A stretch of 44,069 bases of DNA. Source: Chloroflexota bacterium. GTDB lineage: Bacteria > Chloroflexota > Limnocylindria > Limnocylindrales > Limnocylindraceae. The DNA is taken from positions 1 through 44,069 of the forward strand of contig JAPLHQ010000004.1 of the NCBI GenBank assembly GCA_026389555.1, written 5' to 3'. A program made the translations under genes and the position numbers. Positions 1,507-9,750 of this stretch are shown in pieces; positions within the stretch are counted from its first letter, which is position 1; every line of letters starts with the position of its first letter. The notes under the pieces were generated by a model. That model was given only the letters and a program-made list of their open reading frames with translations. It did not search any database and was not told the DNA's origin.

Positions 1507-1860
1507 GTGGAGATCCGCCGCTTCGGTCCCGGTAACCGCCGCATAGAACGCGAAGCTGGCGCGATCGGCGTTGCCAGCGCACTCCTTCACGCAGGCGCAA
1601 ACGCGCACATCACCGAGATTGCGCTGAGCGACCGCGCCGCACTTGGACCGGTTCGTAGTCCTAACGACGGCCTGTTGATCGTTATTGAGGGTGGCGGTTG
1701 GCTCGCACTTGCCGACGAGCGTCAGCGTGTTGCAAGCGGCGAAGCGGTTGCGCTTCCAGCCGGAGTTGAGCGACTCCTAGCGACCGATGGTGTTCCGCTA
1801 CGTGCGATCTTGGTTGAGTTCACCTCTGCTCATGCGCTTGAGCAGAGCGTAGGTGAGTAG
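1507..1860 (+). CDS. Cupin-like domain protein
   Basis: GTG start in frame with the 1444-1860 ORF; GGGWLALADERQRVASGEAVALPAGVERLLATDGVPLRAILVEF resembles a cupin core. Tail overlaps the convergent gene. Confidence 0.5.
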   Translation: MEIRRFGPGNRRIEREAGAIGVASALLHAGANAHITEIALSDRAALGPVRSPNDGLLIVIEGGGWLALADERQRVASGEAVALPAGVERLLATDGVPLRAILVEFTSAHALEQSVGE

Positions 1861-4800
1861 CACAACGCCTGCGAGCAGCGCGAGTACGAGTAGCGTTCCG
1901 TCGCCAGCTGTTGCAGCATCGTCTGGCTTCTCGAGCGTCACGCCGAACTGAAACGCCCATGTCCATGTTGGGAGAATCCCTTGATAGAAGTTATGGATGC
2001 CAGTTGGAAGCGGGAGTCCTGACCAGTTCGGATACCAGACCACCGCAACACCAGCGATCGAGATGAGTGCCCAACGGAAGATGCGCCGCGCATCTGTGAC
2101 GCGCTGAACTGACCAGGCGACGTACGCGGCTGGGATCAGTAGCGCTGCACCAATGATCGGGCCTGGTGTTGCAAAGCCGCCAGCGGTACAGACCTGACTC
2201 TCTGCGTAGACATCAAGGACGCCGGCGGCAGAGCAGAGCAGCGCGGTAAGCGCCCAGAGGAGTGGGGCGGCAACTACCAGTGCACCGAGTCCGATGCGCG
2301 TGAGGCGCGCGGCGAGCGCGTCTCCGCGTCGAAGATCTGCGAGCAAGAGTGCGAGAGAGATCAGTGCAATCTGCGACGACGGGAAGTAGTGGTACTGGAA
2401 CGCGGCGCGATCAATGCGCGCCCACGGTAGCCAGAGTGCGAAGTAGAGAATCAGCACGCTCGCCAACCCGATGCTTCGCTGCCTCCACGCCTGCAGTGCA
2501 ATCCACACGGTTCCCGCAACGCCAAGCACGCGTGAGACAACATTGCCCCCGTCGTAGACGGCGCCGGTCCACGCGCCGAGCGCTGCGTAGCTCTCTTGAG
2601 AGAACCAGACGGGCTTCAAATCGAGTGGCCACGCCCACCAGGGTGAGCTTGCAGCGTGCGCAACGCGCAGCGTGTCGTGATACCGATACATGGATGCGGT
2701 GAGGTCGACGAGTGTCTGACCGGTGTTCCCTACCGGCCATCCTGGAACGATCTGGTTGCCGAGCGCCGCCCACGGCACGTAGCTCAACAGGTAGACGCCG
2801 AGCGGGAGTGCAACGAGCGCAAACCCAACAAGGAGCGCCTCGCCACTAAACGCGGCGAGCCGCGACGCGGCGTGCGTTGAGAGATCCGCGCGGCGTAGAA
2901 GCCCAGCGCGCCAGGCGGCGGCGGTTGTAGCAGCCAGTGTCGCTACCGCCACCAAGAGGAAGGGGAGGTTCGGAATACGCGTGCTCTCCGCACTCCGTGC
3001 GAGCGCGGGCGGCAGGAGGAGCGCACCAAGGAGGACGAGTCCGCCCACCACAACAACTCTTCCTCCAGCGCTGCGTGAAAGCCAAGCGGCTCCGAGCGCG
3101 CCGATTCCGTAGATCGCCACCCACTTGCTTGCGAGCGCTATGCCGAGCGTTGCTCCTGTGGCGAGCAGAAGGAGTGCTCTCGAACGTGTGGTGTGCACCC
3201 GACCCTGCAGCCATGCAACAAATGCACAACATGCGGCGAGTAGTGCGGCGAGTAGGTAGACGTCGTTCATGCCGATGCGGCTCTGCACAAACCCGGCGCC
3301 GTCAAGGAGCGCAAGGGTGCCGACAAGCGCCGCCACATCACGACGCTCCGTGAGGAGTCGCGCGAGGAGGGCGAGGAGCGCCGCCGCCAGTGCGCCAGCG
3401 ATCACACCGGGCCATCGCCATCCTGCCGTGAGGTCGCCAACGGAGAGCTGTGCGATCTCTCCGCCTGGCCAGGCGACCAACAGTTCACCACGGCCGCCGT
3501 TCGGTAGCTCAGAGGAGGCGTCGAGCGCAGTGCCCACAATCTCCGTTGATGCTGCGCTATCACCGCGTTCACTGCCAAGCGGGACGTCAGCGAATCGCGC
3601 GTTACCGTTTGGCTCAATGCTCCAGAGTGCGGCTCCCGTTACACCGGGTGCGACGGCGTGAATGATCCTCGTTGCGTTGTTTGCCACGATCGCTGTGGCG
3701 CCGGGGATTGCAATCTTCTCCGTCTCGTATGCGGCACCGCTCTCGCGGATCGTATACACAACAATTTCATCTGCAGTTGCTGTATAGATTCGTGGTGTGT
3801 CAAACCAGTTCACCACAGTAACGCTGCGCGAACCTCCGGGTCGTGCGCTCACCATCGCGCCGCTTAAATCGTCTGCACTCATCACGGTGATACCGTCTTC
3901 ACCAGAGGCAACGAGTCGATCTTCCCCCTCTGCTTGAACGAGAGTGAGATCGGTTGCGCCGCGCACTGACGCGGTTGCCTCCAAGACTCCGTTGGTGACG
4001 CGAAGCACCTGATCGCCCGCCGCAACAAAGAGTGTCTCGCCGAGTGGTGCGATCGCAGTTGCGCCAACTGCACCACCAGCCCACGTGCGAATCTCTCCCG
4101 CTACACCGCTCTCCGCTCCCTGCGCTGATGCGTGGAAGGTCTCTCCGCTCTTCGTCACGCCCCAAAGTGAACCATCGTCTGCGGCGACGAGGTGAGTGGT
4201 GTCGGGGATGTTGATAGAAGCAGCTAGTGTGCGCGTCTCAGCGCGCAGAACGTCAACGCGATCCGGTGTAGCGACCCAGATCAGTGCGCTGATGCCTGCT
4301 CCCTCAGGTCGTGAAGCGATAGCTGTGATTGATGTTCCGTACTCACTTCTCCCATCAACGCGCGGCGCGCCGAAGAGTTCGAGTCCGGCGGCGATCGCAT
4401 ACTTTGCAACGTGTGGGTGCGTGTATTCATAGATTGCGTGCGGGTCGTCGTAGCGCCAGAACTGCATAAACTCCGTTGCGGTGCGCACGTGATACACCTC
4501 GTCGAACTCAAAGCGTGTCGGCTCTCCAACGCGCCAGCCGCGAAGTGAGAGTGCGGTGACGGCGATCACGACGATCATCCAGAGATCGACACGGTTGAGC
4601 GGCGCTCTCGGCGCCGGCTGTTGGGCTGGCGTTAACGGCCGCTTTGCCGCTGTGGCTCGTGCGGCGGCGCGTGGCCGTTCAGGTTGCGAACGGAAAAGTT
4701 GCCAGCCGCTGGCACACAGCGCGTAAAGGGAGAGCGCCACCACGAGCAGTATTGCGGTTGGGGTGTGGAGCAGGTCAGTGATTGGGCCGAGATCTGGCAG

Positions 4801-5961
4801 GCCAGGGTTCTTCAGGTAGTCAAGGGTTAGCGCACCCCAGCTGTTTAGTAGAAAGGCGACTGCTACAGCTGCAGCGATCGGTCGCCAACGCGGGATCGCC
4901 GCAGCGAGCGCGAGCGCGAGCGGGATGGCCGGATAGAGGTACCGCTCATGAACGCGTGTCGGCAACACAAAAAATGCGATGGCGATGAACGTGAGGGCGG
5001 CAACGGTGCGCACCCTGTTGTCGCCCCGTGCCGCCCAGAGTGCCGCAAGGATGGCGCCAATAAGGAGTGCAGCGCCGCAGAGAACGGCGGGTGGTCCGCC
5101 CGCAACGAGTGGCGCAAGGTCGCTCCCCCAACCACCGTTAAGGAGGAGTCCGGTCCCGTCGGTGCTGACGAGTGCCCACGGGTTCCATGCGTTGACGCTG
5201 AGATATGGGTAGTTCCCCGCCGCCTCACCAACCTTGCCGATCACGTCCACCACGGTGAGCCCGAACGGGAAGGCGACAAGGGAGACAACCGCTGTGCCAA
5301 CGAGTCCGGCCAACACCACACCCCACGGATCACCTGCGCGGCGAGCGCGAATCAGAGCGAGAGCGGCGAGGAGTGGAATCAGGATGCCGAACTGTGGCTT
5401 CACCACAGCGGCGAGTGCCGCGAGTGCAGCAGCGCGAAGTGTTTTGCCGCGAATCAGTTCTGAGGTGGCAAGGAGAAGCAGTGTCGTTCCAACAGAGTCA
5501 ACCTGCCCCCAGACCGCGGAGGTGAGCCAGATGATTGGTGTGAAGGCAAGAAGGAGCGCGACGTTTCGTTGCGCGCGAGCTGAGGCTCCAAGATCGGCAG
5601 CGAGGCGCACGGTGGCAAGGATCAGCAGTGCGTCCGCAAGGATGGCTGGGAGTTTTACCAGCGCGCCGGGGTCGAAACTTGACGTAAGCGCGCTACTGAT
5701 CGCACTGAGCGGCCAGAGTATCCAGAGGTAGCCTGGGAGATAGTCAAGGAAGTAGCCTCGCGCGTATGCCCCCCACGGTCCGTTCGCACCAAGATCGGCG
5801 GCCCAGCTCCTAAATGCGTTGAGATCTGCCGCGAACCCAGCGTCAGCAGGGAGAATCGCGTATGCGATGATGAGCCGCAGCGTGACCGCGCAGGCGATGA
5901 TGAATACGATGCTCGTGCTGGTAGGCCAGCCGGATGTTGAACTCTGCTTCGCGCCGTTCAT
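1798..5961 (-). CDS. Fusion membrane glycosyltransferase: N-terminal GT-C (HERYLYP type) + GT39/PMT-type protein mannosyltransferase with a beta-propeller-like insertion
   Basis: 1387 aa from internal Met MNGAKQ. N-half AVWGQVDS..KPQ..VHERYLYP; C-half FEFDEVYHVR..YTHPHVAKY..SRIGMNDVYL..MYRYHDTLRVAHAASSPWWAWPLDLKPVWF..YHYFPS, typical of the PMT family. Confidence 0.85.
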   Translation of the reverse strand: MNGAKQSSTSGWPTSTSIVFIIACAVTLRLIIAYAILPADAGFAADLNAFRSWAADLGANGPWGAYARGYFLDYLPGYLWILWPLSAISSALTSSFDPGALVKLPAILADALLILATVRLAADLGASARAQRNVALLLAFTPIIWLTSAVWGQVDSVGTTLLLLATSELIRGKTLRAAALAALAAVVKPQFGILIPLLAALALIRARRAGDPWGVVLAGLVGTAVVSLVAFPFGLTVVDVIGKVGEAAGNYPYLSVNAWNPWALVSTDGTGLLLNGGWGSDLAPLVAGGPPAVLCGAALLIGAILAALWAARGDNRVRTVAALTFIAIAFFVLPTRVHERYLYPAIPLALALAAAIPRWRPIAAAVAVAFLLNSWGALTLDYLKNPGLPDLGPITDLLHTPTAILLVVALSLYALCASGWQLFRSQPERPRAAARATAAKRPLTPAQQPAPRAPLNRVDLWMIVVIAVTALSLRGWRVGEPTRFEFDEVYHVRTATEFMQFWRYDDPHAIYEYTHPHVAKYAIAAGLELFGAPRVDGRSEYGTSITAIASRPEGAGISALIWVATPDRVDVLRAETRTLAASINIPDTTHLVAADDGSLWGVTKSGETFHASAQGAESGVAGEIRTWAGGAVGATAIAPLGETLFVAAGDQVLRVTNGVLEATASVRGATDLTLVQAEGEDRLVASGEDGITVMSADDLSGAMVSARPGGSRSVTVVNWFDTPRIYTATADEIVVYTIRESGAAYETEKIAIPGATAIVANNATRIIHAVAPGVTGAALWSIEPNGNARFADVPLGSERGDSAASTEIVGTALDASSELPNGGRGELLVAWPGGEIAQLSVGDLTAGWRWPGVIAGALAAALLALLARLLTERRDVAALVGTLALLDGAGFVQSRIGMNDVYLLAALLAACCAFVAWLQGRVHTTRSRALLLLATGATLGIALASKWVAIYGIGALGAAWLSRSAGGRVVVVGGLVLLGALLLPPALARSAESTRIPNLPFLLVAVATLAATTAAAWRAGLLRRADLSTHAASRLAAFSGEALLVGFALVALPLGVYLLSYVPWAALGNQIVPGWPVGNTGQTLVDLTASMYRYHDTLRVAHAASSPWWAWPLDLKPVWFSQESYAALGAWTGAVYDGGNVVSRVLGVAGTVWIALQAWRQRSIGLASVLILYFALWLPWARIDRAAFQYHYFPSSQIALISLALLLADLRRGDALAARLTRIGLGALVVAAPLLWALTALLCSAAGVLDVYAESQVCTAGGFATPGPIIGAALLIPAAYVAWSVQRVTDARRIFRWALISIAGVAVVWYPNWSGLPLPTGIHNFYQGILPTWTWAFQFGVTLEKPDDAATAGDGTLLVLALLAGVVLLTYALLKRMSRGELNQDRT

Positions 5962-5989: not shown

Positions 5990-6739
5990 ATGCCGATACT
6001 GATTGATGAACTCTCCCTCTTCTTCCCGTGCCATAACGAGGAGGAGAACCTTCTCCCGCTTGTGGACGAAGCGCTCGCCTCACTCCCCACGCTCGCTACG
6101 CGTTATGAAGTGATCATCGTGGACGACGGATCTACTGACGGCACCGCAGCGGTTGCAGCGAGGCTTGTTGCTGCACACCCTGGGGTGGTGCGCCTGGTTC
6201 GCCACGAGAAGAATCGTGGATACGGCGGTGCGCTTCGAAGCGGCTTCGCCGCTGCAACGATGCGCTTTGTTGCCTTTACTGATGGTGATCGTCAGTTCCG
6301 CGTTGCAGACCTTGCGCTCTTGCTACAAGTGTCACGCGAGCGTAACGCACCGGTGACAGTAGGGTTCAGGCTGCGCCGCGCAGATCCACTGGTTCGAAGG
6401 GTGTATGCGGGCGTCTACCGGTTTGCAAACCGCTTCTGGTTCTCACTCAACATACGCGATGTTGATTGTGCGATGAAGCTCTTTGATCGTGGTGTGTTGG
6501 CTAACGTTTCCATTGCTTCCAATGGTGCCTTCTTCTCTGCTGAGCTACTCATTAAGCTCCGTGCCGCAGGTGTGGCCATTGAAGAGGTTGGCGTCCCACA
6601 CTTTCCGCGTACCGCTGGATCGGCGAGTGGCGCGCGGCTCAGCGTCGTGCTTGCGGCGGTCAGAGACTTCTGGTCACTAAGGTTCGCCCTCTGGCGTGAT
6701 CGCGGCGCTGCGCTTCGTCGTGGGGAGCCGCTCCTCTAA
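5990..6739 (+). CDS. Family 2 glycosyltransferase, polyprenyl-phosphate mannose/glucose synthase-like
   Basis: LSLFFPCHNEEENLLPLVDEAL, YEVIIVDDGSTDGT, NRGYGGALRSGF, FTDGDRQF motifs. Confidence 0.88.
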   Translation: MPILIDELSLFFPCHNEEENLLPLVDEALASLPTLATRYEVIIVDDGSTDGTAAVAARLVAAHPGVVRLVRHEKNRGYGGALRSGFAAATMRFVAFTDGDRQFRVADLALLLQVSRERNAPVTVGFRLRRADPLVRRVYAGVYRFANRFWFSLNIRDVDCAMKLFDRGVLANVSIASNGAFFSAELLIKLRAAGVAIEEVGVPHFPRTAGSASGARLSVVLAAVRDFWSLRFALWRDRGAALRRGEPLL

Positions 6740-7284: not shown

Positions 7285-9750
7285 TTACGGTTGTGTGCTT
7301 GGTAGCTCAATCACTGGAACGGTGGTGGGCGCTGCGGAGGGGTCGTCCCCTGGGGTGATCCCTGTGCCGAGGACGGCGCTTCGGATGCGAGCCCCCTCAG
7401 CCCAGACAAAGGTTGGTGCGCCACCGTCTACGGCGAGGGAGATGTATCCGCCAACGATGTTGAGGCTGGTAGCGTCTCCCGCGAGGAGCCTGTACTGCGC
7501 GAGCACGCTGCCTGAGCTCCCCTTGCTATAGGTAAGCATGCGCTGGTTCTCGCTATCCCATCCGTAGATCACGCCGGTCCTGCTCGCGCCAGCGGAGAAG
7601 ATGAGACTAATCTGCGGAGCGCTGCGTAGCGCACTGTCGCCAGGATCTGCGGGTGTCCACTCATCCACCGCACCGCCAACATATCGGCGAATCGCGCCGT
7701 TCTGCGAAAGGTAAAGGTCGCCGTCGATCGCAAGCGCCTCAACGCTTGCAAGCGACGTTGGGTTAATGAGATATCCGGTCGGCGGTGCCGGATAACCCGT
7801 TCCGTCTGGCGCAGGCGCGTACCGAAGGATCTGTCGCGCGGAGGGATCAACCGCGTAGAGGCGGTAGAGGCCCGTCCCTTCGTCTGCGGCGAACCCGGAG
7901 ATGATCTTCACGTCACTCCCCCAGAGCTCTCCGTCACGCACGCGAAGCTTCACGAGTGTCCCTTTACCGCTGCTGTCCGCCGGTCGCCATCGCCAAAGGT
8001 TTGATGAGGCGTCAAAGATCACGAGGTCTGGGCCGGCCGACATGATCGCTTGTGCACGCCCCGTCCTGCTTCCAAACAGGTCGTAGCCTGGCTGAAAGAC
8101 CACGGTGGCTCGTGGATTGGGTTGCGCTGCAGGATCAACGCGGTAGACCGCGCCCGAGTAGTCATCAATGATGTATGAGTAGCCGTCTGGCCCCTGCGTG
8201 ATTGCGGTGATGGCGATTGGCACGCTCGCCGAAGAGAAATCAAACACCTCCATCACGGTTGCCTCGGTTAGGAAGAAGATCTTGTTAAGCGCCGGCAACA
8301 TCAGCTCTCGCAGCGCTGCAATCTCGTCTGCTGGTGCTCCGCCCGCCTCTGCGATGTTTAAGCTTTCCGTAGCTGAGACCAGGAGATTTTTTGCACGTTC
8401 TGGATCGTTAACCAGAAGGTTGGTTGTTGGATTGAGCGCCTCTTCCACTGCGCGGCGCGCGTCGCTCATCGCGATGCGCGCGGACGCTGCGTCATCAAGG
8501 TTCGGGTTCGCCTGGTTCAAGTAAACGGCCGCCCCGCCGCCGAGCGCTGCGATGAGCACCGTTGCAAGGAGGGCCGAGGCGGCGAAGCGGCGACTTCGAG
8601 TCGCACGCTCTTCGGCGGATTGTCGCTTGGCTACGTGCTCAGGGCTGAGTGTTGGCGGGACCTCCTTGGTGGCGAGCCTCGGGAAGCGCGCCTCTAGTTT
8701 TGCGGCGAACCGAGCGACGGCGCGCTGAATGGGAGATGGCGCTGTGGCGGCGCGCTCAGCCCACGAACGTTCAACCCGCGGCTCGGATCCGGGGCTGCGC
8801 TCGGCGCGTGCCTGCGCCGCCCTTCTCGCCGCGTCTCGGGCGCGACCTTCTCGGCTTGGTCGTTCTGGGCGCGGCTCCGCTCCGCGCGGCGTGGCGCTTG
8901 CGCGAACTCCACCGCCTCGGCGCACTGCGATCACCTCTTGTGCCGCTCGGTCAATCGGTGTGTATGGGGTTGTCGCCCCCTCTGGACGGCGGGGGTCCCC
9001 TGTTGGTTTTGGTGCAACCGCGGCGGCGATCTGTTCGTTTCGCTCGTCGTTCCCCTCCTCCCACCGGACCCGCGCACGCGCCTTTGCTTGCGCAATGTTG
9101 TCTGCAGGAATTGAGAGGAGCGTCTCTTCGTGTCGTTCCGCTCTTCGGGGGTTGGTTGTTGCAGGTGTTAACAGTGCGATGACTGCGCCGACCTCCTCCC
9201 GCTCGCCATCGTCGCCTAGGGCAACCTTCAGTAGTGCGGTGGCCCCCTCTGATGTTTCCGCTAATGCGATGCGATCGCCTTCGCTAATCAGCAGCCTTCC
9301 AACCGTCACACCTTGTCGTGTTGCTGAAGGCGCCTTCGCCCCGGGTGCGCCGCTCGGAAGTGCGATTGTGACGCGACGTGTCTCTCGCAGGACGAGCGCG
9401 GCGGCACTGATGCCACTGGTGGTTGCTGCCCACGCTTCGCGTGGAAGCATGCCGACCATGCAGATCTCACTATTCTCGCCAAGGGTGACGCGTAGCTTTG
9501 TAATGATGTTGCGCGCGCGCTCCGTTGCGCTCGCGCCTGCACTGGTGTCAAAGGAGTTGAGCGCCTCTTCTATTAGCTTTCGTCCAACTTGGTCGTTTAG
9601 GTTCGGTGAGGAGATGATGATCGCGCGCGCGCCAAGCGTTCGCTCCTCTGTTGGGGTTGTTGGCATGCGAAGAAGAAGCGCACAGCTTTTTCCGACCACC
9701 ACGCTTGTTGTGGCGGAGACGATGGTTGGGCGAGGGGTTTGCGCTGTCAT
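7285..9750 (-). CDS. PPM-phosphatase-like N-domain (probably degenerate), Arg/Pro-rich linker, one TM helix, extracytoplasmic propeller-like domain
   Basis: GRLLISEGDRIALAETSEGATALL near N-terminus; linker PRPERPSREGRARDAARRAAQARAERSPG; TM FAASALLATVLIAALGGGAAVY; C-terminal repeated beta blades (ITQGPDGYSYIIDDYSGAVYRVD etc.). Confidence 0.6.
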   Translation of the reverse strand: MTAQTPRPTIVSATTSVVVGKSCALLLRMPTTPTEERTLGARAIIISSPNLNDQVGRKLIEEALNSFDTSAGASATERARNIITKLRVTLGENSEICMVGMLPREAWAATTSGISAAALVLRETRRVTIALPSGAPGAKAPSATRQGVTVGRLLISEGDRIALAETSEGATALLKVALGDDGEREEVGAVIALLTPATTNPRRAERHEETLLSIPADNIAQAKARARVRWEEGNDERNEQIAAAVAPKPTGDPRRPEGATTPYTPIDRAAQEVIAVRRGGGVRASATPRGAEPRPERPSREGRARDAARRAAQARAERSPGSEPRVERSWAERAATAPSPIQRAVARFAAKLEARFPRLATKEVPPTLSPEHVAKRQSAEERATRSRRFAASALLATVLIAALGGGAAVYLNQANPNLDDAASARIAMSDARRAVEEALNPTTNLLVNDPERAKNLLVSATESLNIAEAGGAPADEIAALRELMLPALNKIFFLTEATVMEVFDFSSASVPIAITAITQGPDGYSYIIDDYSGAVYRVDPAAQPNPRATVVFQPGYDLFGSRTGRAQAIMSAGPDLVIFDASSNLWRWRPADSSGKGTLVKLRVRDGELWGSDVKIISGFAADEGTGLYRLYAVDPSARQILRYAPAPDGTGYPAPPTGYLINPTSLASVEALAIDGDLYLSQNGAIRRYVGGAVDEWTPADPGDSALRSAPQISLIFSAGASRTGVIYGWDSENQRMLTYSKGSSGSVLAQYRLLAGDATSLNIVGGYISLAVDGGAPTFVWAEGARIRSAVLGTGITPGDDPSAAPTTVPVIELPSTQP

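Follow-up and report, generated by a model that had tools for sequence, protein, structure and literature searches.

The window analyzed here, a stretch of 44,069 nucleotides, encodes on its minus strand (positions 1798 to 5961) a protein of 1387 aa. It is composed of an N-terminal GT87-like GT-C glycosyltransferase domain and a C-terminal protein O-mannosyltransferase (PMT) domain, and the latter carries a predicted seven-bladed β-propeller in its first extracytoplasmic loop (loop 1). The propeller-bearing PMT is a new, class-wide form of a known enzyme type. Neither a propeller in any PMT nor a GT87-PMT fusion was found described in the open-licence papers searched, and in these papers the insertion is not documented as a variant of the standard PMT. 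We explain the protein, with moderate confidence, as a PMT whose loop-1 propeller docks the acceptor and whose fused GT87/Alg6-type GT-C half extends the first mannose. The architecture in this explanation is demonstrated at the level of sequence comparison and predicted structure; the sugar, the class of acceptor, the docking by the propeller and the extension by the fused half are what we infer.

The gene is a single uninterrupted open reading frame with its start at position 5961. Relatives from the same genus give full-length matches to the 1387-aa protein at 54-94% identity. A match to the chain was present in all 61 of the 61 genomes searched, with open frames at the listed places, which rules out an assembly or frameshift artefact. 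The insert itself is neither a chance event nor an artefact, since it is found in frame and at the identical point in all measured homologues of this type from five families (f1 to f5). When the chain was used as a single-sequence query against the PDB sequences, no useful match was obtained. Pfam, run on the window insert alone, returned no family, and WD40, PQQ, NHL and Reg_prop motifs did not rise above their cut-offs. As both searches were uninformative, profiles and structure prediction were needed.

The C-terminal half is a PMT/GT39-type mannosyltransferase, as judged by its membrane core, its motifs and its modeled fold, and the corresponding activity is predicted. The first transmembrane segment (TM1) and the first part of loop 1 are encoded at 4402 to 4593 (minus strand) and comprise the motifs FDEVY (residues 486-490, with the DE pair at 487-488) and THPHVAK (residues 514-520, with THP at 514-516). 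The remaining membrane domain, from TM2 onward, lies at 2329 to 3423 (minus strand) and is recognized by Pfam in two parts: PF02366 (PMT) at 3079-3423, starting at residue 847 directly after the insert (54.1 bits against a cut-off of 22.7), and PF16192 (PMT_4TMC) at 2329-2715, starting at residue 1083 (33.0 bits against 32.4). The motif SRIGMND is located at 3262-3282 on the same strand. Among 33 homologues, the D, E, H and P of these motifs are invariant and SR...D is conserved, all being invariant or at least 90% conserved. In a profile of these homologues, the D-E (FDEV), H-P and SR...D positions line up with the same motifs of yeast Pmt1 (6p25). A Foldseek search of the PMT-half model against solved structures ranked fungal Pmt4 (9i5k) first (E 7e-9, TMt 0.54). 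The Pfam scan of the chain gave no MIR match.

The inserted domain comprises 311 residues (536-846, positions 3424 to 4356, minus strand) and is located between the catalytic DE...THP segment and TM2. The first-pass annotation had placed an insertion of ~310 residues at 3427-4359, in the first extracytoplasmic PMT loop beside the DE motif; its boundaries differ from ours by 3 bases, and its position after DE...THP and before TM2 is the one observed here. That annotation had also proposed a β-propeller-like fold, to be checked by structure prediction, and the prediction bears this out. AlphaFold2 was run on the PMT half with 33 homologues as input (pLDDT 83.5, pTM 0.87, most of the insert above 90). 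From the loop-1 helix to TM2, the model displays exactly 28 strands, which span 3442-4362. Below Pmt4, its Foldseek matches include propellers in large number, many at TMt 0.65-0.75. When a 769-aa homologue from the distant family f3, 28% identical to the window protein, was modeled separately, 28 strands were again obtained at high confidence, with propeller matches up to TMt 0.79. We consider the term β-propeller to be right because 28 strands at high pLDDT recur in two separate models. Seven blades of four strands each is the simplest reading of this predicted strand count.

Without recourse to modeling, the insert profile likewise retrieved propellers as its best matches among the PDB sequences (Reg_prop histidine kinases, YncE, WD40 proteins and similar), and Pfam gave weak Reg_prop, PQQ_2 and DUF5074 matches for the inserts of some relatives. 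The domain thus resembles known seven-bladed propellers (YncE 3vgz, Vgb 2z2o, WD40 proteins, Reg_prop histidine kinases) in predicted fold, with its 28 strands and a TMt of about 0.65-0.79. It differs from them in its low identity (about 10-17%), in the lack of a family motif in the window member and in being placed inside the loop of a membrane enzyme.

All homologues of this type that were measured in the five families have an insert of 286-499 aa at this junction; the families belong to Candidatus Limnocylindria (Chloroflexota). Its length is 302-317 aa in f1, 331-499 aa in f2 and 286-360 aa in f3, f4 and f5. Families f1 and f2, i.e. the same genus and the sister family, probably correspond to Limnocylindraceae and CSP1-4 (PMC13212565). 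In most f2 inserts (L032-L051; alignment A2, columns 200-365), the middle of the propeller is interrupted by an extra sub-insertion. Initial insert lengths of 528 (L047) and 485 aa (L048) were rejected as too long, as they include TM2 onward; in alignment A2 these inserts measure about 456 and 398 aa, respectively. The named relatives are metagenome-assembled genomes (MAGs) of Chloroflexota, Candidatus Aquidulcis and Limnocylindrales. A homologue with 56% identity to the query was also observed on a contig of a 'Gammaproteobacteria' MAG (L066), which is probably mis-binned Aquidulcis DNA. Inserts from f3 match the f1/f2 insert profile weakly by sequence, so their common descent with f1 and f2 rests on the position, the fold and a conserved D and G near the insert C-terminus.

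Standard PMTs are built differently at this point. Within the phylum, 251 Chloroflexota genomes were sampled, and other phyla were covered by a pattern-based scan only. In the listed out-of-class PMT matches from the 251 genomes, the loop-1 model positions lie directly beside TM2. In the standard PMTs of the fetched loci, both out-of-class (G286, G293 and G165, for example) and in-class paralogues (G062, G066, G070), the membrane core is shared and TM2 aligns directly, whereas only 3-26 residues separate the loop-1 catalytic segment from TM2 and a GT87-like half was not detected. Conservation of the insertion across the clade and its absence from the standard PMTs compared, which the first-pass annotation had put forward for checking, are thus both observed. 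In f4 genomes, a further PMT of the standard, insert-free type (about 500 aa; L168, L169 and L170) is present beside the propeller-bearing one. Within the range of the searches, the insert characterizes a single PMT lineage in a single class.

The N-terminal half, which was overlooked in the first-pass annotation, spans residues 1 to about 430 (positions 4672 to 5961, minus strand) and is a GT87/Alg6-like GT-C glycosyltransferase according to Pfam. The GT87 label is marginal: PF09594 scores 27.5 bits against a cut-off of 25 when the half is scanned alone and 24.2 bits within the whole chain, and Alg6_Alg8, which also matches this half in six of seven members, competes with it. Matches in the PDB between the N-terminal half and a mechanosensitive channel were judged spurious. 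The GT87-like half is joined to the PMT in homologues of all five families. A paralogue from f2 (L050, G034:C23) has kept the PMT and the propeller but lacks the GT87-like half, and the two additions are therefore separable.

Among characterized systems, the eukaryotic PMTs (Pmt1-Pmt2, 6p25; Pmt4, 9e61 and 9i5k) share with the present chain the GT-C core, the DE pair in the TM1-TM2 loop, the HP and SR...D motifs and the presence of an extra soluble domain outside the membrane. Their soluble domain, however, is a MIR β-trefoil located between TMD7 and TMD8 (PMC12705809) rather than a propeller in loop 1, a difference in layout that the first-pass annotation had anticipated, and they have no fused GT87-like half. 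MIR domains have been implicated in substrate movement and, in the passage of the same source that cites Chiapparino 2020, in a contribution to dimerisation (PMC12331936). Actinobacterial PMTs belong to the same GT39 family, are bacterial and use a polyprenyl donor, but bacterial PMTs such as MtPMT of M. tuberculosis and Pmt of S. coelicolor are described without a MIR or other bulky soluble domain (PMC12331936), and they are unfused. The N-terminal half finds its counterpart in PimE, a GT87 mannosyltransferase that extends protein O-mannose using a polyprenyl donor (PMC12757957). In mycobacteria, PMT and PimE are separate proteins that act sequentially on one glycan (PMC12757957), whereas the GT87-like half is here fused with the PMT.

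Divergent from the PMT gene lies a GT2 gene (5990 to 6739, plus strand; PF00535, 97.9 bits) that resembles polyprenyl-phosphate-sugar synthases. The best PDB matches of its product include ArnC-type transferases (9hwj/9bhc) and the Dol-P-Man synthase 5mlz. This divergent arrangement is seen in the window and recurs in those f1 contigs that extend to the gene, and the gene is near the PMT gene in some f2 and f4 loci. The GT2 enzyme is a probable donor supplier for the PMT. Further along, an 821-aa protein is encoded at 7285-9750 (minus strand), the C-terminal half of which is repeat-rich and possibly another propeller; no Pfam or PDB sequence match was found for it. An origin of the insert by copying from this neighbour is unsupported, as there is no BLASTP similarity. 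The region 10109-33744 is a replication-origin-type neighbourhood with recF-, dnaN-, dnaA-, gyrA-, gyrB-, parA- and parB-like genes, as judged from the translations.

In the pathway that we propose, the GT2 enzyme would make a polyprenyl-phosphate sugar, probably mannose, which would be flipped across the membrane. The PMT half would then move the sugar onto Ser/Thr residues of exported proteins. The propeller, located outside the membrane beside the active site, may dock or orient the emerging acceptor, as has been proposed for the eukaryotic MIR domain, and the GT87-like half may lengthen the glycan, a step for which mycobacteria use the separate enzyme PimE. In its fullest form, this would be a single-chain, two-step O-mannosylation that arose independently of MIR, in which the propeller captures exported proteins as they emerge above the active site of the PMT, the PMT adds the first mannose and the GT87-like half extends it; we put this version forward tentatively.

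The pattern of conservation within the insert bears both on docking and on the reading that the propeller is mainly a protein-protein scaffold, which would mediate dimerisation of the enzyme or link it to an envelope partner or the secretion machinery, and would make no contact with the acceptor. Propellers are typical interaction platforms, and the contribution to dimerisation reported for MIR would fit such a role. The first and last blades, which adjoin the membrane domain, are the best conserved, whereas the middle blades vary among lineages and no conserved binding site is evident in them. Such a pattern would be expected of a domain that is anchored to the membrane core by its edges and faces a variable partner with its remainder; it is compatible with docking, in line with the substrate recruitment that the first-pass annotation had suggested, and does not tell docking and scaffolding apart. 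We regard the scaffold reading as doubtful, since the position of the insert within the catalytic loop speaks for its taking part in catalysis or in access of the acceptor, and no partner protein was identified.

The acceptor, in turn, need not be a protein, because the chain reaches 20.7 bits where the NCBIfam equivalog for protein O-mannosyltransferases (NF058602) requires 800. Its score far below this cut-off is a further difference from the actinobacterial enzymes. The enzyme might instead glycosylate a cell-envelope polymer or lipid, with the propeller as a glycan-binding or wall-anchoring domain; the families of the N-terminal half also act on lipids and glycans, and the substrates of GT-C enzymes are not readable from sequence. 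Against this, Pfam, the PDB profile and Foldseek all place the membrane core nearest to the protein O-mannosyltransferases, and the PMT catalytic motifs are conserved, so that we judge a polymer or lipid acceptor unlikely. That the insert is a passive domain, acquired a single time by the class ancestor and retained without a specific role, would agree with its faster divergence relative to the membrane core (43% versus 71% identity in the same pair), but is very improbable given that it is intact in every measured homologue of the type across five families, including genomes of about 1.1 Mb (in one of 1.16 Mb, the one PMT-type gene found retains a 311-aa insert), and that D368, G388 and G396 (A1 numbering) are invariant.

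The acceptor-docking PMT fused to a GT87/Alg6-type half, which remains our preferred reading, predicts that proteins are O-glycosylated in this uncultured lineage, which is abundant in freshwater and soil; no report of this was found in the open-licence papers searched. For the question of how PMTs select their acceptors, the loop-1 propeller offers a natural comparison to MIR. The architecture suggests that substrate handling in these bacteria is unlike that of the yeast enzymes. If the single-chain reading is true, the acceptor-handling problem would have been solved independently of MIR, in another loop and with another fold. With a propeller and a fused, putative chain-extending glycosyltransferase in one protein, the role of accessory domains in PMTs becomes testable.
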